Positions 3,987 through 11,627 of a stretch of 33,088 nucleotides of DNA are shown here, piece after piece. The stretch is taken from contig JAUIJI010000019.1 of assembly GCA_030431435.1 (NCBI GenBank), positions 1 through 33,088 on the forward strand, written 5' to 3'. Each line of letters opens with the position of its first letter. Position 1 is the stretch's first letter. A model generated the notes under the pieces. It saw only the letters and a program-made list of their open reading frames with translations, did no database searches and was not told the origin of the DNA. The DNA is from Alphaproteobacteria bacterium. GTDB taxonomy: Bacteria > Pseudomonadota > Alphaproteobacteria > Sphingomonadales > Sphingomonadaceae. A program made the translations under genes and the position numbers.

Positions 3987-4358
3987 TTACTTCGGACGCT
4001 TGGCGCCGTACTTCGAACGGGACTGCTTGCGGTCCTTCACGCCCTGCGTGTCGAGAACGCCGCGCAGCACGTGGTAGCGCACGCCGGGAAGGTCGCGCAC
4101 ACGGCCGCCGCGGATCAGCACAACGGAGTGCTCCTGCAGGTTGTGGCCTTCGCCCGGGATATAGGCGATGATCTCGCGCTGGTTGGTCAGGCGGATCTTG
4201 GCCACCTTGCGAAGGGCCGAGTTCGGCTTCTTCGGAGTGGTGGTATAGACGCGCGTGCAAACGCCGCGCTTCTGCGGGTTGGCCATCATGGCCGCGGACT
4301 TGCTCTTCTTGACGATCGGCTTACGCGGCTTGCGGACAAGCTGGTTGATAGTTGGCAT
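3987..4358 (-). CDS. rpsL: 30S ribosomal protein S12
   Basis: S12 lies at the decoding centre and governs translational accuracy and streptomycin response. It is 123 residues, full length. The conserved segment [19 protein letters not shown] keeps lysine at residue 43. In the second streptomycin loop, [10 protein letters not shown], residue 88 (codon 4095-4097, CGC) is arginine, where E. coli has lysine. Lysine to arginine at this site is a known streptomycin-resistance change in other bacteria. It is the first gene of the str operon, with the operon promoter presumably within 4359-4856. Confidence 0.98.
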
Positions 4359-4401
4359 TAAGTTCTCACTTCACCTGCGGGTCCGCGCCCTGCCCCACCA
4401 T

Positions 4402-4492
4402 CCGCTTATGCTGAGCTTGTCGAAGCATCGCCCTTCACTTCGGGCAAACCTCGAAAAACAAAACGACCCTTCGACAAGCTCAGGGTGAGCGG
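4402..4492. repeat. Palindromic element with TTCGACAAGCTCAG arms
   Basis: The arms CTGAGCTTGTCGAAG (4411-4425) and CTTCGACAAGCTCAG (4469-4483) are a perfect 15-bp inverted repeat. It extends imperfectly to about 26 bp on each side (4402-4427 and 4466-4492) and encloses about 40 bp with a small GCCC/GGGC hairpin. I recall this arm sequence as a common dispersed intergenic palindrome in sphingomonads and related alphaproteobacteria. It sits upstream of the str operon. Copy number needs a genome search. Confidence 0.75.
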
Positions 4493-4573
4493 AAAAGGGG
4501 ACAAGCCGCTTTCCCAAGTTTGTGGCGCTTCGGGCATCAGATGGAATGTATCGGGATCGCCCCGCTTGCTGCG

Positions 4574-4737
4574 TTCCCGCTAAGGCGGGAACCTCGTGCC
4601 GCAAGCTCTTGCCCGCGGGAGACCCCCGCCTTCGCGGGGGAGCACAAGAGGCGAGCCTGAAACGCTCCACCTGGTGCCTCGGGCACCGGTTACTTTGACG
4701 GCTGCACCACCTGCCTGATTTCCCGCGAAGGCGGGAA
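4574..4737. repeat. Three GCGGGAA-type hairpins in a row
   Basis: Three short hairpins with 7-bp stems and 4-base loops lie at 4574-4591 (TTCCCGC/GCGGGAA), 4623-4640 (CCCCCGC/GCGGGGG) and 4720-4737 (TTCCCGC/GCGGGAA). The first and third share the same stem. This is the REP-like intergenic palindrome type frequent in high-GC alphaproteobacteria. Apart from these, the palindrome at 4402-4492 and presumably the str promoter, I see nothing coding in 4359-4856. Confidence 0.65.
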
Positions 4738-4856
4738 CCTCAATCAGCCTGGCACGACACCGGCAATGTTCAGCTCTATATATCGAAAAAGGGCCAAGCC
4801 CCCATCCGAGACCGCGCGCCTTTAGCGGGGGGATGGCGGGGGGTCAAGGGGGGTGC

Positions 4857-5378
4857 TTATGAGCGTTGCTCCAGATATTGACCTACACTTACCACGCCCT
4901 TGTCTGTCAATTCGACGAAATTGACGCGCCGGTCATATCCAGATGTCGAGCGCTTCACATAGCCACTCTGCTCAAGCTGGCTGATGTACCTTAGTGCGGT
5001 GGTCGATGGACAATCTGAAGCAATACACAAACTGGTTGTCGAAACCTTGGCACCTCCGGCAAACTGCATGAATAACTCCAGCAGCATGTCCCAAGCAGGC
5101 TCACCGAGTAGCTCTGGCGAAATATACTCCCGCCTCTTGCGACGCCCGTCATAGATAAGCTTTGCCTTCATAGCGAGATTGATCGCATTTCGCTCGATGC
5201 GCGACAGTGAGTTGTGCCAGCGGAAAATCGAGCGCGCTTGCGGCCCCTGCCAATCCTGATCAAGTGAATCGGCCAGATGAAGCAGGGTGTTTGCAAGGTT
5301 CCTTATGTCTTCAGGCTTCCAGCTTTCTGCCAAACCGGCAAGAAGGGCCTGACCATCCTTTTGAAGCATGTTGTCCAT
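4857..5378 (-). CDS. Winged-helix (MarR-like) regulator, module copy 1
   Basis: A 173-residue predicted DNA-binding protein. The C-terminal half has a MarR-like winged helix: VSTTSLCIASDCPSTTALRY forms the helix-turn-helix, followed by the wing SGYDRRVNFVELTDKG. The N-terminal part is helical with a basic run (YDGRRKRR) before LLGEPAWDMLLELF, a phrase I recall from a sphingomonad family of winged-helix proteins of unknown function. The ATG at 5378 shares its A with the TGA of the upstream membrane-protein gene (TGATG), which indicates translational coupling. It is the last gene of copy 1; copy 2 has a RadC-like gene in this place. Target genes are unknown. Confidence 0.85.
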   Translation of the reverse strand: MDNMLQKDGQALLAGLAESWKPEDIRNLANTLLHLADSLDQDWQGPQARSIFRWHNSLSRIERNAINLAMKAKLIYDGRRKRREYISPELLGEPAWDMLLELFMQFAGGAKVSTTSLCIASDCPSTTALRYISQLEQSGYVKRSTSGYDRRVNFVELTDKGVVSVGQYLEQRS

Positions 5379-5848
5379 CAGGCATGCCTCTCTTGGGGGG
5401 AAAAAGGGATGCGCCAGTCTCGTGCCCGAATGCCCCTCGTACGGCGCAAAAAGTAAGCTAATGATCCAAAACCAAGGATAACGGTTTGCAATATAATCGG
5501 CCCCTGCGTCATGCCCCAAAATGCCCGGCTCATCCCAAACTGGATCACAAATGCCGAAAGATGGCCTGTCACTTCCACAAGCCAGAAGGCAGAAAAGAAC
5601 AGAGGCCAGACCCGATTGGATTGGATGGCCAACAATAGAGTTAGGAGAAAGAACACAGACGTTAGCAACAAGTAAGCCAAATTCGGGCCAAAATAGTCGA
5701 CCGGTTGGCCAAGCGCCGTCAACACAACCTTAATGAAATAGGCCAGCAGTAGGAGGGCCGCGCCAATGCGCTCAGGCCCCCCTCCCTGCCAGAGGCTCCA
5801 AAGGCAAATGCCGACAAGTGATAGTTGTAGGATTTCCATGATCGGCAT
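5378..5848 (-). CDS. Four-helix membrane protein, module copy 1
   Basis: A 156-residue integral membrane protein with about four hydrophobic helices and a basic cytoplasmic tail (RRTRGIRARDWR). I do not recognise a named family. It is clearly related to the 155-residue protein at 8966-9433: both have a GG.GPE(R/K) turn after helix 1, an AI(Q/R)(S/A)NR(V/I)(W/Y)PL segment before helix 3 and an Arg-rich tail ending ..WR. It starts 15 bp after the small helical gene and is coupled to the winged-helix gene by TGATG. The base composition is low for this genome: by hand count, 5581-5640 is about 52% G+C against 67% at 8641-8700. A sensor or anchor role is inferred only. Confidence 0.85.
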   Translation of the reverse strand: MPIMEILQLSLVGICLWSLWQGGGPERIGAALLLLAYFIKVVLTALGQPVDYFGPNLAYLLLTSVFFLLTLLLAIQSNRVWPLFFSAFWLVEVTGHLSAFVIQFGMSRAFWGMTQGPIILQTVILGFGSLAYFLRRTRGIRARDWRIPFSPQERHA

Positions 5849-5863
5849 AGCTGCGAAGCTCAG

Positions 5864-6181
5864 TCAGGCTGCCAACTGACCGGTGCGCATGGGACCGTTC
5901 TCGGGACAATCGTCCACCAAGCCTTTCTCACGCCCGATATCGAGCAGTCCGCCGTGCACCCGAGCGAGGTCATTTCCAGACGCCGTGATGGACTGCTGTG
6001 CCTTGATCAGGCGCATGATCTCAGCCTGTCCAATCCAGTTGCGTTGCTCGGCCTCCATTCGCGCGCGCAGCATTTCGGTAAGCAGCTGGGACTGGCGCAG
6101 GAGAGCTTCATCCAAGGCCGTTTCCGCATGCTTCAGTTCCTCGGTGATCCGCATGGTTGCGATCTGGGGGGTCATAGTCAT
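5864..6181 (-). CDS. Small helical protein, module copy 1
   Basis: A 105-residue soluble protein, almost entirely helical and probably coiled coil, rich in Glu, Gln and Arg (ELKHAETALDEALLRQSQLL). I recognise no family. Homology to 8599-8925 runs along its length: the same heptad-like spacing, the GQ pair in mid-protein, and a terminal (E/G)..P.R.GQ motif with one Cys. A GTG at 6241 overlaps the regulator's stop (TAGTG), but the ATG at 6181 has a GGAG Shine-Dalgarno and gives the same length as the paralogue, so I chose it. It lies between the anchored LuxR-type regulator and the membrane protein. Confidence 0.8.
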   Translation of the reverse strand: MTMTPQIATMRITEELKHAETALDEALLRQSQLLTEMLRARMEAEQRNWIGQAEIMRLIKAQQSITASGNDLARVHGGLLDIGREKGLVDDCPENGPMRTGQLAA

Positions 6182-6240
6182 TTGTTTGGTCTCCGTGTTT
6201 GTGAAAGCCCACTCTTGGGCACGGACCAAATCGGAGGACA

Positions 6241-6759
6241 CTACATCATCAGGCGTGACAGTTGCTCAAACATCGCCAAGCCACCAATCCCGACCACAAT
6301 GGTTGCCGCCGCAATTGCGAAGACGGCTCCCACGCGCATCAAGACGGCATTTTGTCCTTCGAAAATCGCCGGGACAAGGCGACCATTATCCGATGCAACT
6401 GGCGGTTCCACAGATGTGCTTGCCTGTGGTAAATCGACAATCAAATCAGAGCGATCACCCGGTCCACGGCTTTGATGCAACGGTAATGCCGAAGATTCGA
6501 TATACGATTTATCATATATCGTTTTTCCATATATGCCTCGAAGGCGCTTGTACGCAGAAATCAGGTCGCTACGCCGTTCAACGTCGAGCTTTTCTCTCGC
6601 AAGTCGGATACGCTGGTCGACCGTGTGTGGAGAGATTCCGAGCTCCCGCGCTATCTCTTTCGAGGTCTTGTGTTCCAACAGCAGATCCAGAACTTCTCTC
6701 TGGCGTTCTGTCAAAATCTCCAGTCTACTCATCGAAGTGCCTTGTGGCTCTTCCGGCAT
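6241..6759 (-). CDS. Membrane-anchored LuxR-type HTH regulator, copy 1
   Basis: A 172-residue protein with a LuxR/GerE helix-turn-helix at its N-terminus (LTERQREVLDLLLEHKTSKE at 17-36, then IARELGISPHTVDQRIRLAR), a linker of about 60 residues, and a single hydrophobic helix at about 141-165 ending almost at the C-terminus. This order, DNA-binding domain first and a tail anchor, implies a regulator held at the inner membrane. There is no receiver or autoinducer domain. The ATG at 6759 has an AGGGGG Shine-Dalgarno; an ATG at 6732 is the alternative. It is first in the copy-1 operon and homologous to 7995-8528. The AT-rich stretch just after the HTH contains a palindrome (6498-6521). Confidence 0.88.
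   Translation of the reverse strand: MPEEPQGTSMSRLEILTERQREVLDLLLEHKTSKEIARELGISPHTVDQRIRLAREKLDVERRSDLISAYKRLRGIYGKTIYDKSYIESSALPLHQSRGPGDRSDLIVDLPQASTSVEPPVASDNGRLVPAIFEGQNAVLMRVGAVFAIAAATIVVGIGGLAMFEQLSRLMM
6498..6521. promoter_or_regulatory. Palindrome inside the copy-1 regulator gene
   Basis: CGATATACG at 6498-6506 and CATATATCG at 6513-6521 are 9-base arms with one mismatch around a 6-base centre, in a very AT-rich patch (35% G+C over 6481-6540) that codes for the linker after the HTH. A binding site for the encoded regulator is possible but unproven. Confidence 0.25.
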
Positions 6760-7192
6760 CTTTGCCCCCTTACTGCGACCCGAACTTGGGTTTAGCCTGC
6801 GGTCCTTGTTATGTTGTTGACCCAGGTCATCGCGCTCTCATTTTCCCAAGAGTCCTACCAATTTGCCGCAGCCGATGTGCTTTTGACAAGGCACAGGCCC
6901 AGTTCGAGACAAATTTTTCACAACTAGCAAAGGAAATTTACATCAGTTTTTCAGGAGTATCTTTGATATCGTTCACTATTTCGCCAACCGGTGCAGGATT
7001 TTTCCTGCGCCCGATCCGGGGAAAATTTGGTCACGCAATTGCGACGGTGAGGTGCCGTTCACGTAATCCTACGTAGAACATCTGCAGACCGCCGATAATT
7101 GCGATAAAACCTCTTTCCTACAGCCCCTCCCCCATGCTCACCCGCTGGGCATGACCAACACCAGAGCCATCGCCCGGCAGGGCACTTCGTAT
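6760..7192. other. Intergenic region between module copy 1 and the HTH gene
   Basis: This 433-bp stretch separates two divergently transcribed genes and should hold both promoters. Visible items are a TTGACA at about 6893, a GCAGGA/TCCTGC hairpin near 6993-7008, and an ACGTA-N4-TACGT inverted repeat near 7062-7075. I could not pair any -35 with a convincing -10. No gene is seen. Confidence 0.4.
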
Positions 7193-7810
7193 ATGACCAC
7201 GCGATCCGGGGAGTTGCCCTCGCCCGATGAGCCGCTGCTCGCCTTCACACCCGTCCCGCACTCGCGGCCCAGGCGCAATTCGATCACGGCGGAGCGGCAG
7301 CGGGCCTTTATCGCGCATCTTGCGGCCACGGGGATTGTCACGCAGGCGGCGCTGCATATCGGCGCTTCCAAGGAGGCGCTGTACAAACTGCGCCAGTGGC
7401 CCGGGGCGGAAGAGTTCAATGCGGCGTGGGATGCTGCGGTGGATCGCGGGGTGGCGCGGCTGGAGGATTGCGCGCTGGCTCGCGCTATCGAGGGGGAGGA
7501 GCGGCTGGTGGTGTCAGCCGGAAAGCTGATCGGCACCGAGCGGCGGCACAATGAATCCCTCGTGATGTTCCTGCTGCGCCATCGCCGCGCGCATCGCTAT
7601 GGCTCCGACATAAGGCCCGGACACCCGCTTTACGAGCGCATCCGCATCGAAGTGCTCGCCGATATCGCCGCGCGCGAGCCGAGCGATGAGGAGATACTCG
7701 AGGAACTGAACGCCAAGATCGACGCTTTCCGCCGCAATCTGGAGGCGCAGGGCGAACCGGGCGAATCACTATCAGGCGACAAGAATGTGCAAATCGGATC
7801 AGCTGGCTGA
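7193..7810 (+). CDS. Terminase-small-subunit-like HTH protein
   Basis: A 205-residue protein with a helix-turn-helix region (ITAERQRAFIAHLAATGIVT, then QAALHIGASKEALYKLRQWP) resembling phage terminase small subunits. The rest is charged and helical, with no catalytic motif. An in-frame ATG at 7151 has no Shine-Dalgarno; the ATG at 7193 has AGGG about ten bases upstream and was preferred. It stands alone between the two divergent module copies, with 433 bp upstream and 184 bp downstream. No other phage gene is nearby, so a working terminase is unlikely; a domesticated DNA-binding protein fits better. I recall similar solitary genes in sphingomonads. Function is unknown. Confidence 0.75.
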   Translation: MTTRSGELPSPDEPLLAFTPVPHSRPRRNSITAERQRAFIAHLAATGIVTQAALHIGASKEALYKLRQWPGAEEFNAAWDAAVDRGVARLEDCALARAIEGEERLVVSAGKLIGTERRHNESLVMFLLRHRRAHRYGSDIRPGHPLYERIRIEVLADIAAREPSDEEILEELNAKIDAFRRNLEAQGEPGESLSGDKNVQIGSAG

Positions 7811-7994
7811 CACCGTTCGACCGGCCGGTTGCCCTATCAGGCCGGATTATCCTGTCTTTTCAGGACCGGGTCCGGCAAGCTTTCCAACGGCATGGCTAAC
7901 TGTTAAGAAAGGTTAACCGCGACCCGATACGCAGGGTCAATCGTTTTACGTTGGACTCTGCGGGATTGTTAACTCGCCGGAACCCGAAAACGCC

Positions 7995-8528
7995 ATGCAA
8001 GACCACACTATCAGCCTCGAGGATGTCTTCGACACACTCACCGCAAAGCAGCGCGAGACGATTGAGCTGCTCGGCGAAGGCTGGACCAGCAAGGAGATGG
8101 CCCATGCGCTGGGAATCTCCGAATCCGCGGTGATCCAGCGGATCGAGACGCTGCGCGCCAAGACCGGCGGCATGTTGCGCAAGGACCTTGCCCGCGCCTG
8201 GCGTGACCATACCGCCCGGGAGGAGCCGCCTCTGGGAGACTGTAAGGACCTTACAGGTAAGATTTTTCAGGTGTCGCCTGACGCTGGCTGGCCGCAAGAA
8301 GCGCCCCAGGATCACTTCGACAACGAGCTCGAACTGGCCGACGCAATGCCCTTCGAGGCACCTGCGCCATGGGCCCGGAGCGAAGAACCCGAGGTGGTCC
8401 CGGAGATGCTCGACGGGCGTGATGCCGTGTTCAGGCGCTCCTTCCTCGCCATTGGCATGGCCGTGGGCATGCTGGTCGCAATGCTGGTGCTGCTGTCAGT
8501 GGCAAGCGAGGTGGGAGAACTGCTCTGA
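7995..8528 (+). CDS. Membrane-anchored LuxR-type HTH regulator, copy 2
   Basis: A 177-residue paralogue of the regulator at 6241-6759. The N-terminal LuxR-type HTH (LTAKQRETIELLGEGWTSKE at 15-34, then MAHALGISESAVIQRIETLR) aligns with copy 1. A Pro/Glu-rich linker follows, and one hydrophobic helix (about 149-170) lies within a few residues of the C-terminus. The residues before the helix match too: PEMLDGRDAVFRR against PAIFEGQNAVLMR. There is no sensor domain, so any signal probably comes through the membrane partner. It is the first gene of copy 2, with GC content like the rest of the chromosome. A perfect 17-base palindrome lies in its linker (8240-8256). Confidence 0.88.
   Translation: MQDHTISLEDVFDTLTAKQRETIELLGEGWTSKEMAHALGISESAVIQRIETLRAKTGGMLRKDLARAWRDHTAREEPPLGDCKDLTGKIFQVSPDAGWPQEAPQDHFDNELELADAMPFEAPAPWARSEEPEVVPEMLDGRDAVFRRSFLAIGMAVGMLVAMLVLLSVASEVGELL
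8240..8256. promoter_or_regulatory. Perfect palindrome inside the copy-2 regulator gene
   Basis: CTGTAAGG-A-CCTTACAG is a perfect inverted repeat with 8-base arms and a 1-base centre. It lies in the coding sequence just after the HTH region, where copy 1 also has a palindrome of different sequence. It could be an intragenic operator or chance. Confidence 0.3.
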
Positions 8529-8598
8529 CGTGTTGTCGCCCGACCTCCCGGTTTGGGTTTGCGCTGGCATTGAGCCTGCCGGCGCCGGAGAACATAGC

Positions 8599-8925
8599 AT
8601 GTTGACTATCGAAGCAGCTGGCGCCCGTGTGGCGTCTGACCTGGAAGATGCCGAAAGGCTCACCAACGAGAGCCTCCGCGCCCTCGCCCGCCTGCAACTG
8701 AGCATGTTGAACGTGCGGCTCGATACCGAACTGCCGCAGTACCAGGGCCAGCTGGCCGTGGTGCGCCTGCAGGAAGCACAGAAGCAGATGGTCGATGCGA
8801 TGAGCAACCTCACCAAGGTGCACAAGTCCATGCGCGAGGATTACCTCAAGATCACCGGCCTGCCGGATGCCCCGGGCCGCTGCCCGCGCGGACAGATCGC
8901 CCTGGCGGAGAAAACCGCTGCCTGA
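8599..8925 (+). CDS. Small helical protein, module copy 2
   Basis: A 108-residue helical protein without a recognised domain, homologous to the 105-residue protein at 5864-6181. Shared traits are an N-terminal short strand-like start, a long amphipathic helix (EDAERLTNESLRALARLQLS), the mid-protein GQ, a second helix ending KITGLPDAP, and the terminal C-P-R-GQ signature. The ATG at 8599 has a GGAG Shine-Dalgarno nine bases upstream. A longer in-frame reading from 8188 overlaps the regulator gene and is not credible. It is 70 bp after the regulator and 40 bp before the membrane-protein gene. A dimerising adaptor between those two is a guess. Confidence 0.8.
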   Translation: MLTIEAAGARVASDLEDAERLTNESLRALARLQLSMLNVRLDTELPQYQGQLAVVRLQEAQKQMVDAMSNLTKVHKSMREDYLKITGLPDAPGRCPRGQIALAEKTAA

Positions 8926-8965
8926 CGCTTCGGGAAAGTGGCGCGTCTGATCGCCGTATGATGAG

Positions 8966-9433
8966 ATGGGCGCGCTGCTTCTCGAATACCGAGCCTTTGT
9001 CCAGTACCTGCTGATATTCGCGCTGACGGCCTATGCCTTCCGGGGTGGCGATGGCCCCGAGAAATGGGCCGGCGCGACACTGTCGGCCATGGTCTTGCTG
9101 GACATCCTTTACCGAACGCTGGTCCCGGCGGGCAATGTCTACAACCGGATCGACTACGGCCTTCTCGCCATCGATCTTGCGGTGTTTGCCAGCCTCGGCC
9201 TTCTCGCCATCAGGGCGAACCGGATTTACCCGCTATGGATGTTTGCAGCACAGATCATATCCACCATGACGCATTTCAACCGGGAGTTGAGCGCGGACAT
9301 GGAGCCGATCGCCTACTTCGTGCTGGCGAGAGCGCCGTCCTATATCCAGATCATCGCCCTCTTGTGTGGACTGGTGGCGCACCGGCGCAGGATCAGGCGC
9401 TTCGGCACGTACCGGTCCTGGCGCAATTCCTGA
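8966..9433 (+). CDS. Four-helix membrane protein, module copy 2
   Basis: A 155-residue membrane protein with about four hydrophobic helices and an Arg-rich C-terminal tail (HRRRIRRFGTYRSWRNS). It is homologous to 5378-5848, sharing FRGGDGPEKW after helix 1, AIRANRIYPL before helix 3, and the tail. No family name comes to mind, and there is no obvious catalytic or transport motif. The ATG at 8966 has no strong Shine-Dalgarno; an ATG at 8958 is out of frame. The downstream RadC-like gene begins inside or right at its end. Its constant company with an anchored regulator suggests a signalling partner in the membrane, which is inference. Confidence 0.85.
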   Translation: MGALLLEYRAFVQYLLIFALTAYAFRGGDGPEKWAGATLSAMVLLDILYRTLVPAGNVYNRIDYGLLAIDLAVFASLGLLAIRANRIYPLWMFAAQIISTMTHFNRELSADMEPIAYFVLARAPSYIQIIALLCGLVAHRRRIRRFGTYRSWRNS

Positions 9434-10002
9434 AGCCGATCCTGGGCCGCAAGGCAGAGCGAGAAGCGGCGCGGCTGATTACGAAGTTCGGGTGCATTGC
9501 CAATATCCTCGACACCACGCCCGCCGCCCTGCGCGAAGCGCTGGCCGACAGGCCGGAACTGGCCAATTCCCTGCTGGCAGCACGCGAACTCGCGCTCGCC
9601 GGATGGGCGGAGAGCATCAGGGGCAAACCCGTCGACACCAGCGATCCGCATCTGAAGAACTACCTCGTCGGGAAACTGCAGAGCCCGCGCGAGGAGCGCT
9701 TCCACGCCATCTTCATCGACCGGGACCAGCGCATCATCCATGATGAACGGATCTGCACCGGCGGTACCGACGGGCTCAAGTTTCGCACCCGCCATGTGAT
9801 CCACAGGTCGCTGGAACTCAACGCCTACGGGCTGATCGTCGCTCACAACCATCCATCGGGCAAGGCCGCGCCAAGCCGCAAGGACTGGCAGGCAACAGAC
9901 CACCTGCGCTCGATCGCCGCTGCCGTCGACGTCTCGCTGCTTGATCACTTCGTGGTCGCCAGCGGCGCTGTCTACAGCATGCGCCTGCAAAGTCTCATCT
10001 GA
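9364..10002 (+). CDS. RadC-like JAMM (JAB) domain protein
   Basis: A RadC-family protein. The C-terminal JAMM metalloprotease-like domain is intact: Glu in PREERFHAIFID, then HNHPSGKAAPSRKD, which fits H-x-H-x7-S-x2-D. The N-terminal part (AARLITKFGCIANILDTTPA) resembles the helix-hairpin-helix region of RadC but is short. RadC biochemistry is unsettled; the domain is common on mobile elements. No ATG suits the start: the nearest standard codon is GTG at 9364, inside the preceding gene, and a CTG at 9430 overlaps that gene's TGA. The start is therefore uncertain; from 9430 the protein is 190 residues. It takes the fourth place in copy 2, where copy 1 has a winged-helix gene. Confidence 0.82.
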   Translation: MWTGGAPAQDQALRHVPVLAQFLKPILGRKAEREAARLITKFGCIANILDTTPAALREALADRPELANSLLAARELALAGWAESIRGKPVDTSDPHLKNYLVGKLQSPREERFHAIFIDRDQRIIHDERICTGGTDGLKFRTRHVIHRSLELNAYGLIVAHNHPSGKAAPSRKDWQATDHLRSIAAAVDVSLLDHFVVASGAVYSMRLQSLI

Positions 10003-10025
10003 CCCCCTTCATGAAAGACACCGAC

Positions 10026-10190
10026 ATGGCCAACCCAAAGACCAGAGAACTTCCCCAGCAATACGCATCACCGGCACTTGCCGAATATGGCACGCTGGAG
10101 CAGGTGCTCGCATCGAACGTATCGCTGGAAGTAAAGGCGGCCTGTATCGAACTGGCAATCAGGGCGCGTGATGCCAAGAAGAAGGGATGA
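10026..10190 (+). CDS. 54-residue peptide with a lasso-leader-like motif
   Basis: A short ORF, MANPKTRELPQQYASPALAE followed by YGTLEQVLASNVSLEVKAAC and a Lys-rich end. The segment YASPALAEYG fits Y-x-x-P-x-L-x-x-x-G, the leader motif by which lasso-peptide precursors are recognised. The threonine usually found six residues on is replaced by leucine. The C-terminal half looks helical, unlike a lasso core, and no cyclase, protease or RRE gene is visible. An in-frame ATG at 10011 would add five residues. It lies 23 bp after the RadC-like gene, before a hairpin at 10221-10252, so it is probably last in the copy-2 operon. Confidence 0.6.
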   Translation: MANPKTRELPQQYASPALAEYGTLEQVLASNVSLEVKAACIELAIRARDAKKKG

Positions 10191-10220
10191 CGGCAAAGCC
10201 TGAACCCCTTGTACCCGGGG

Positions 10221-10252
10221 CCCTGCGCACATCCATCAGGGTGTGCGCAGGG
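10221..10252 (+). terminator. Hairpin after module copy 2
   Basis: CCCTGCGCACA (10221-10231) and TGTGCGCAGGG (10242-10252) form a perfect 11-bp stem with a 10-base loop. It follows the last small gene by 30 bp and ends the copy-2 transcript plausibly. It lacks a T-run, so termination may be incomplete or Rho-assisted. The remaining bases up to 10364 are AT-rich at 10265-10280 and probably contain the next promoter. Confidence 0.55.
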
Positions 10253-10364
10253 TTAGGGCCGCTAACACAAAATATTACAGACCGAATCAACCTGCCCTCT
10301 GGCATCAGGCCGCAAACTCCCTTAACCTGCCGGACATAATCACATTGGGAAGGGAGCCCGATCT

Positions 10365-11627
10365 ATGGCCCGCAACGGTCTTTTTACGAAAATTGCCTTC
10401 GCCGCAGGGGTTGCCTCCATGGCGCTTTCCTCCGGCATTGCCGCTGCGCAGGAGCGGCCGGACGATCTCTATGAACTGCCGCCGGTGCCAACCGATTACC
10501 AGCCTGACCGGCTGCCGTGGGGCGATCCCGATTTCACCGGCACCTGGCCGATCGAGCCGATCAACAACGGCCGCATCCTGTTCCAGCGCCCGGCCCACTA
10601 TGGCAACCGGTTCTGGGTGAATGACGAGGAATTCGAGCGCCGTCTCGCCGCCGCCCGCCAGCAGGATGGCAACTTCACGCAGGCCAATGACAGCGGCATC
10701 GGCGCAAGCGGTACCACGGGCCTGGAAAACTGGTTTCTCACCCACAATTTCGGCAAGCGCACTTCGATGCTGGTTTCGCCTGTCGATGGCCAGCTGCCTG
10801 ACCTGACGCCCGAAGCGATGGAACTGTTCAAGGCCGGTCGTTCGGGCTGGGTCCCGGGTCAGGCCTATGACTGGGTGGACGATTTCGACAGCTGGGACCG
10901 CTGCGTATCGCGCGGTTTCCCCGCCTCCATGTACCCGTTCCGCTACAACAACGGTATCCGCGTGTTCCAGTCTCCCGGATACATGACCATCGTGCTGGAA
11001 ATGCTCGGCACCCGCGTGGTCAAGATCTATGACAGCAAGGAAGAAGCGCAATCCGCCAAGTGGGACGAAAGCGTCGAAGCCTGGATGGGCAATTCGCGCG
11101 GCTGGTGGGAAGGCAATACGCTGGTGATCGAGACGACCAATATCGTCTCCGGTGACTCCGCGACGGAAGATGTCTACGCCCGCTCGGCCTCGCCGCTCAA
11201 CATGGCGACGCAGTTTACCGGCACGCTGGAGGTTCCCGCCTTCAACACCGTGCCGATGAGCACCGAGGCGATGACGGTGGAACGCCTGACCATGACCAGC
11301 GACGATGCCATCGTGCACGAGCTGACCTATTCCGACCCCGAGGTTTACACTGAACCGTGGACCACGCGCATCGAATGGACGCGCGATGATGACTACACCT
11401 TCTTCGAATATGCCTGCCACGAGGGCAATTACATGCCGCGGGACTACATCAGCGCATCACGCGCCCAGCAGGCGCGCATCGCCGCTGGCGAGGAAGAGGC
11501 GGTGACCGCCGAGAATGATGACCGTTCGCGCTTCGCCCAGCCGTTTGACCACGATCCCGGCACCGGCCCGCGCCCCGGCTTCGGCCCGCCCCCGCCCGCC
11601 GATGACGAGGAAGAAGCTGACGGCTAA
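10365..11627 (+). CDS. Conserved exported protein of unknown function
   Basis: A 420-residue exported protein. A signal peptide covers about residues 1-29 (hydrophobic core IAFAAGVASMALSSGIAAAQ). The mature part has DPDFTGTW at 54-61, WMGNSRGWWEGNTLVIETTN at 240-259 and YACHEGNY at 349-356. I recall these phrases from a large family of hypothetical secreted proteins in sphingomonads and Acidobacteria with no assigned role. Two cysteines in conserved-looking positions (180 and 351) could form a disulfide. The tail is rich in Pro, Asp and Glu and probably disordered. It is a single gene ending at a bidirectional terminator. Confidence 0.85.
   Translation: MARNGLFTKIAFAAGVASMALSSGIAAAQERPDDLYELPPVPTDYQPDRLPWGDPDFTGTWPIEPINNGRILFQRPAHYGNRFWVNDEEFERRLAAARQQDGNFTQANDSGIGASGTTGLENWFLTHNFGKRTSMLVSPVDGQLPDLTPEAMELFKAGRSGWVPGQAYDWVDDFDSWDRCVSRGFPASMYPFRYNNGIRVFQSPGYMTIVLEMLGTRVVKIYDSKEEAQSAKWDESVEAWMGNSRGWWEGNTLVIETTNIVSGDSATEDVYARSASPLNMATQFTGTLEVPAFNTVPMSTEAMTVERLTMTSDDAIVHELTYSDPEVYTEPWTTRIEWTRDDDYTFFEYACHEGNYMPRDYISASRAQQARIAAGEEEAVTAENDDRSRFAQPFDHDPGTGPRPGFGPPPPADDEEEADG

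Follow-up and report, generated by a model that had tools for sequence, protein, structure and literature searches.

Two divergent copies of a widespread HTH-HEL-TM gene module in a sphingomonad contig: a possible membrane-tethered transcriptional control module

Positions 1 to 33,088 of contig JAUIJI010000019.1 (GenBank assembly GCA_030431435.1, Alphaproteobacteria bacterium, Sphingomonadaceae; this whole stretch of 33,088 nucleotides is referred to here as the window) hold two copies of a gene module built around three proteins: a helix-turn-helix (HTH) protein, a small helical protein (HEL) and a membrane protein (TM). The HTH-HEL-TM core is a real and widespread unit. Our favoured reading, to which we assign a probability of roughly one half, is that it acts in transcriptional control as a dedicated module tethered to the membrane, alongside which a unit composed of a RadC protein and a winged-helix (WH) protein acts in many lineages. 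The genes of the two copies, and one small open reading frame (ORF) that follows them, are:

4857-5378, minus strand: WH1, copy 1 winged-helix protein (Pfam HTH_27, 3.3e-05, 24.5 bits against a cut-off of 22.2)
5378-5848, minus strand: TM1, copy 1 membrane protein of 156 residues with five hydrophobic segments (BLASTP against copy 2, 4e-7)
5864-6181, minus strand: HEL1, copy 1 helical protein of 105 residues (BLASTP against copy 2, 5e-10)
6241-6759, minus strand: HTH1, copy 1 HTH protein, with an HTH of LuxR/sigma-70 region 4 type at the N-terminus, a linker and a predicted C-terminal transmembrane helix as tail anchor (Pfam GerE 1.9e-12, Sigma70_r4_2 1.8e-12; hydropathy)
7995-8528, plus strand: HTH2, copy 2 HTH protein with a predicted C-terminal transmembrane helix (BLASTP against copy 1, 2e-13)
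8599-8925, plus strand: HEL2, copy 2 helical protein (BLASTP against copy 1; AlphaFold2)
8966-9433, plus strand: TM2, copy 2 membrane protein with five predicted helices (BLASTP against copy 1; AlphaFold2)
9364-10002 (start uncertain), plus strand: RadC2, copy 2 RadC/JAMM protein (Pfam RadC 3.8e-31)
10011-10190, plus strand: small ORF 3' of RadC2, 59 residues, association with the module uncertain

Each of the eight module genes has an uninterrupted frame, located at or close to the coordinates given in a first-pass annotation of the window, which had claimed two homologous three-gene sets. Indeed, the two sets, which lie on opposite strands, match each other gene by gene in BLASTP at the E-values listed for HTH, HEL and TM, and the pairing is therefore not due to chance; the sequence motifs quoted in that annotation for the membrane and small proteins are likewise present. 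A search with the TM profile found no third TM gene in the window's genome (2.9 Mb, 163 contigs). A possible start of WH1 is the ATG at 5378, which has one base in common with the stop codon of TM1, while the RadC2 frame stays open back to a GTG at 9364, a start that would overlap the TM2 gene; the stretch from 9436 onward was employed for RadC2 searches.

The profiles of HEL (A3) and TM (A1) were searched in 149 genomes of the window's family. TM was matched in 83 of these and HEL in 84, with both present in 82, and 25 of the 83 TM-positive genomes possess at least two TM genes. The first-pass annotation had named rare co-occurrence, or dissimilarity of the two sets, as what would speak against its proposal; instead, 102 of the 108 HEL matches have a TM match on the same strand no more than 1 kb downstream, the matched stretches being separated by a median of 125 bases, and the two sets are similar. 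Three of the six unpaired HEL matches are weak, 42-residue matches, and the other three belong to two genomes (G045 and G125) in which the TM modules are without HEL and HEL genes persist elsewhere in the genome; since HEL is present away from these modules, it appears to have been moved and kept. Twelve of 116 TM matches have no HEL upstream, tandem TM copies and one fragment being among them. Across the order, TM was found in 149 of 296 genomes. In a sample of the class, where at most ten candidates were scored per genome, only 7 of 385 genomes gave a TM match; four of these belong to the family of the window and the remaining three to a single other family. The five loci of this other family comprise one HTH-HEL-TM arrangement (L158), the rest being HEL-HEL-TM(-TM), HEL-TM or HTH-TM, and neither RadC nor WH was found in these five loci.

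To these profile counts we added a set of 80 regions around TM matches, hand-picked to spread over genera, which together with the window copies gave 82 modules for scoring. HTH is present in 81 and HEL in 77; the order HTH-HEL-TM is found in 77, and HTH lies ahead of TM in 81, these loci having been selected for holding TM. A conserved three-gene core with operon-like order, as first proposed, is thus borne out. For HEL and TM, no family in Pfam, NCBIfam, PADLOC or PHROGs matched above its cut-off, which agrees with the first-pass view of an undescribed module. No description of the module appeared among the open-licence PMC papers listed, so that one elsewhere is possible. As a side observation, three loci (L110, 6008-8251; L087, 5516-6481; L154, 5801-6719) carry between two and four genes of the TM family in tandem within one module.

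The two sets had been said to differ only in their fourth gene, and the winged helix and RadC to represent an exchangeable output. The first statement holds within the window, where copy 1 is without RadC and copy 2 without WH, but it fails as a general rule among the 82 modules scored. RadC is present in 45 of them, WH in 40 and both in 18, and whenever both genes come after TM the order is TM-RadC-WH. Furthermore, the two are united in a single frame in the loci L095 (confirmed by Pfam) and L099 (from module profiles and reading by eye), and one frame matches both in six of the 16 plasmid records opened (L161, L162, L163, L165, L166 and L167; the L161 fusion was confirmed by Pfam, and L165 and L166, with identical scores, may be one sequence). 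Because 18 of 82 modules have both genes and some fuse them, RadC and WH are not alternatives and the exchangeable output was abandoned: they are two further genes of an HTH-HEL-TM-RadC-WH arrangement, and each window copy is without a different one of the two, either through loss or from the outset. In a joint tree of 81 modules, copy 1 is placed among mostly WH-only modules and copy 2 among RadC modules, RadC presence changing 12 times (shuffle mean 26.7) and WH presence 16 times (shuffle mean 27.4). The window copies, which stand apart on this tree, are old paralogues.

RadC2 matches the Pfam RadC family (PF04002) with 108 bits against a cut-off of 22.1, and the NCBIfam equivalog NF000642 with 120.4 bits, under its cut-off of 180. 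An alignment of 43 of the 48 profile matches (five short, second or distant matches were left out) revealed that the JAMM residues E87, H137, H139 and D150 are invariant in the module RadC sequences, with S147 in at least 90% (motif as described in PMC300881). The only solved relative found by sequence is 2QLC. The likeness to the RadC family lies in the domain match and the JAMM residues, whereas the module RadC is distinguished by being fast-diverging, tied to a putative membrane regulator module and sometimes fused to a winged helix. The median identity is 35% among module RadCs (43 of 45) and 62% among other RadCs (19 of 20 fetched), the genome sets not being matched. WH resembles MarR/HTH_27 proteins in its C-terminal winged helix and differs from them in an N-terminal part of about 100 residues without a match over cut-off, and in having RadC as neighbour or fusion partner.

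One review treats RadC as a clade of JAB domains, suggests nucleic acid or nucleotide processing and records disagreement over a role in DNA repair (PMC5512222), and a Sphingomonas genome paper lists radC simply under DNA repair genes (PMC9611098). Module radC coexists with another radC in several genomes (for example G015, G060 and G089); hence the label "DNA repair protein RadC", carried by two plasmid modules, may mislead. Might RadC, a family whose function has long been in dispute, be the enzymatic arm of the module? Its JAMM centre would then process a module protein, for example by clipping the tail-anchored HTH or HEL, or nucleic acid at a site bound by WH, turning a signal sensed by TM into an enzymatic switch. 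We consider this rather doubtful; if true, RadC would acquire a set of partners and a substrate open to testing.

A hydrophobic helix at most 40 residues from the C-terminus was found, by hydropathy only, in 81 of 81 module HTH proteins, so that the tail-anchored HTH protein anticipated in the first-pass annotation recurs in every one of the 82 modules that holds an HTH gene. Among all HTH matches near TM, 81 of 83 have this helix. The two exceptions are soluble LuxR-type proteins encoded downstream of RadC in L089 and L114, of which one is a GerE protein and the other a response regulator; they were considered as possible module parts and read as neighbours. HTH1 matches GerE with 47 bits, over the cut-off, and HTH2 with 20.5 bits against a cut-off of 23.5. 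The module HTH proteins share their HTH domain with LuxR/GerE and sigma-70 region 4 proteins and differ from these in the predicted C-terminal membrane anchor and in that no receiver or autoinducer domain was matched in Pfam. Of the domains that mark a two-component system, histidine kinase and receiver, Pfam lists neither among the eight module proteins of the window.

Regulators of the ToxR/CadC type carry an N-terminal OmpR-type winged helix and a C-terminal periplasmic sensor domain, and LysP is one membrane partner in such systems. The module HTH proteins have a transmembrane helix by hydropathy, in which they resemble these regulators, but their HTH is of LuxR/sigma-70 region 4 type (best Pfam matches Sigma70_r4_2 and GerE), with no Trans_reg_C among the Pfam matches listed for HTH1 (best 25 of 28) or HTH2 (15 of 15), and the position of the helix, within 40 residues of the C-terminus, leaves them without a periplasmic domain. 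Moreover, the module partner has five predicted helices and is accompanied by an extra helical protein and by RadC-WH. As two defining features of the ToxR/CadC family are lacking, the module is not placed in that family; it is a variant of the membrane-held transcription regulators, with two protein families that lack matches over cut-off. The common theme, covered in part in two papers (PMC5430869, PMC7496328), is a DNA-binding domain held at the membrane by one helix together with a membrane partner such as ToxS.

The membrane protein had been taken for a four-helix protein, yet the AlphaFold2 model of TM2 has five helices (mean predicted local distance difference test score (pLDDT) 74, predicted template modelling score (pTM) 0.67, from a 4-sequence alignment). 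HEL2 is modelled as helices 4-43 and 49-86 with a short turn between them (pLDDT 72, pTM 0.33), which we read, at low overall model confidence, as a hairpin. With region borders set by us from the AlphaFold2 model, loops 1 and 3 of TM are the best conserved (mean entropy 1.81 and 1.57) and loops 2 and 4 the least (3.17 and 3.04), D70 being present in 78 of 82 sequences and H103 in 77 of 82. With five helices and a basic tail in the cytoplasm, the positive-inside rule would assign the N-terminus to the outer side of the membrane and loops 1 and 3 to the cytoplasmic side. We read the conserved TM surface as contacting cytoplasmic partners, and the TM helices as likely the sensing part. The conservation pattern fits the first-pass suggestion that the membrane partner may sense and the adaptor pass the signal on. 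A sequence search of the PDB gave no match for TM and three weak matches for HEL (E 0.018-0.04).

In the control module that we favour, HTH would be a transcription factor tethered to the inner face of the membrane by its C-terminal helix and without a sensor domain of its own. The five-helix TM would be its membrane partner, with conserved loops and a basic tail that are probably cytoplasmic and that dock or gate HTH, while a cytoplasmic HEL may bridge HTH and TM or control HTH dimerisation; a change in the membrane, or a ligand of TM, would then alter DNA binding by HTH. RadC, of JAMM type, and WH, a MarR-like winged helix, would constitute one downstream DNA-associated unit, sometimes one polypeptide, which acts with the core in many, though not all, lineages. 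If this reading holds, an environmentally common group of bacteria would possess a large class of regulators, tethered to the membrane and so far unexplored, and RadC would gain concrete partners in the core and in the WH to which it is sometimes fused.

The core genes and RadC have diverged together: tree distances of HTH, HEL, TM and RadC correlate with r = 0.57-0.76, none of 999 permutations being as high, and part of this correlation is explained by the shared ancestry of whole loci. WH distances also correlate with those of TM (r 0.33, 0/999) and RadC (r 0.45, 2/999). Several results weigh on the other side. WH distances show little relation to those of HTH (r 0.11, 73/999 permutations as high) or HEL (r 0.12, 90/999), and because of this WH is perhaps a loose partner. 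RadC and WH are both missing from 15 of the 82 modules; one module has the form HTH-TM-WH, in a genome (G069) where HEL was not found, and in L119 a TM gene stands without adjoining HTH or HEL. The HTH2 match to Sigma70_r4_2 is a weak one (25.9 bits against a cut-off of 25.7), and a Foldseek search with the TM2 model gave no PDB fold match at E <= 0.001, the best being 0.9. Finally, no clear shared motif was found in 80 upstream regions, where the best dyad occurred in 4 (maximum of 20 shuffles, 3), the best 7-mer in 16 (14), the best 8-mer in 9 (8) and the best 9-mer in 6 (5); these counts are barely above those of the shuffles, and related loci can cause such an excess. Promoter-like sites numbered 0 against 1.8 expected, and a terminator scan gave 5 against 5.3 expected. 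Since there is neither a clear upstream motif nor a promoter-like site, autoregulation is unsupported.

The modules without either gene and the loose fit of WH to HTH and HEL would also be expected if RadC-WH and HTH-HEL-TM were unrelated neighbours whose association is due to chance or to common insertion sites. Another RadC is present elsewhere in many of the genomes, and indeed some RadC was found in 143 of the 149 family genomes (in the window's genome, the sole other match is a 35-codon piece). However, RadC follows TM in 45 of 82 modules, and its distances correlate with those of HTH, HEL and TM (r 0.57-0.68, 0/999), although partly via inheritance of the whole locus; module RadCs also separate fully from other RadCs on a tree, none being misplaced, with a weak support of 0.10. 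We regard this reading as quite improbable.

Both module sites are variable, since relatives show other occupants, an empty site or different flanks. Copy 1 has rpsL on one side and the conserved gene at 7151-7810 on the other; a copy 1 is also found there in G014 (L123) and in a genome of another genus (L080). In four genomes of the window's genus (G346, G103, G275 and G331), copy 1 is lacking between rpsL and the flanking gene and other genes are present: a HipA_2/DUF3037 pair in G346, a sub-cut-off GmrSD_N match with an HTH in G275 and a DRT-type reverse transcriptase in G331; for those occupants of G103 (L188) that were tested, no family was matched. Matches in this interval include the Drt6 model (1.3e-147), candidate PDC-M66 for HipA_2/DUF3037 (2.2e-14 and 6.6e-14) and PDC-M69A for an HTH (6e-8). 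In G283 the flanking gene has only a distant relative. In Altererythrobacter sp. KTW20L (L153), which shares the window's neighbourhood, HTH1, HEL1 and TM1 were not found at the place of copy 1 but WH1 is still there (58% identity), not far from the end of a contig and with a GajA/OLD-like fragment (1.3e-9) close by; this orphan fits either a WH that serves copy 2 or recent loss. The site of copy 2 is 7810-10365. In G346 the matches to its flanking genes lie about 190 bases apart, which is an empty site, G014 has a different long ORF there, and Alteraurantiacibacter buctensis (L152) holds a relative of copy 2 without the window's copy 2 flanks.

Two further observations concern these sites. 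The interval from rpsL to 7151 is a variable site in the genus (window 4358-7151; L187, L188, L189, L190 and L153). The conserved gene that separates the copies (7151-7810, 219 residues) is without a Pfam match and has two to five matches per genome in seven searched genomes of the genus.

Such occupants raise the question as to whether the module serves in defence against phages or plasmids, with HTH recognising incoming DNA, RadC-WH processing it and the five-helix protein as membrane effector. The reverse transcriptase, the HipA_2/DUF3037 pair and the PDC-M69A-matching HTH in the copy 1 interval, together with the GajA/OLD-like fragment near the orphan WH, are in keeping with this, as is the rapid divergence of the module proteins (window and L123 share 60% identity in HTH1 and 51% in TM1, against 95% in fusA and rpsL) and the proposal made in a review that nucleic acid processing in conjugative elements is the task of RadC domains (PMC5512222). 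However, HEL, TM and RadC have no match at E <= 1 in PADLOC 2.0.0, where HTH and WH match the HTH parts of regulators (WH weakly SoFic, 0.0025), no phage record matches a TM2 query, and the G103 occupants tested gave no family match. Nor are the immediate neighbours of the modules enriched in defence genes: 4 family matches were obtained among 144 near ORFs and 7 among 127 far ORFs (E <= 1e-15). This test drew on mechanical ORF picks, some of which are not genes, and took in 144 of the 157 near ones and 127 of the 139 far ones, the loci at the list end being omitted. A defence role thus seems unlikely.

TM2 matches 19 plasmid records, all from sphingomonad genera, while TM1 finds only one. On plasmids of Blastomonas sp. 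RAC04 and Sphingopyxis indica (L161 and L162) the module lies between trbB and mobF, in a region of conjugation genes; on plasmid Spl of Novosphingobium PP1Y it lies near virB2/virB3, and the order of genes on MBES04 plasmids is comparable, though the genes bear different names. The module may have a plasmid and conjugation origin, having evolved as a regulator of transfer genes before its domestication on chromosomes. Against this, annotated type IV secretion system genes occur within 4 kb in only three of the 16 plasmid records opened (three of the 16 being unannotated), and many modules reside on Mb-size contigs beside housekeeping genes, such as fusA/rpsL (tblastn) and rpoB-like and uvrA-like genes (by eye). 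The single plasmid record for TM1 also speaks against it, and we judge such an origin to be unlikely.

Some modules have other followers. In Novosphingobium plasmid modules (PP1Y and MBES04; L160, L168 and L174), HTH-TM is followed by a UPF0149/YecA-like gene instead of RadC/WH, and what comes directly after the module in L108 and L118 reads by eye as a gene for a PhoR-like histidine kinase and genes for phosphate uptake.

The small ORF at 10011-10190 has a relative at the equivalent place in KTW20L (L153/L138; 46% over 50 residues), and no further match with E < 1 was found among the module loci compared. The pattern Y..P.L...G, a lasso leader motif, had suggested a link of this ORF to lasso peptides, which was dropped as the motif is absent from the KTW20L relative. 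By eye, the six other matches to the pattern that the searched loci contain seem to be fortuitous (shuffled ORFs gave 4), and no lasso genes were seen beside the ORF in the window's ORF list, to which no profile search was applied. A plasmid of Sphingopyxis macrogoltabida (L169) does carry genes for lasso peptide biosynthesis, located after the module.

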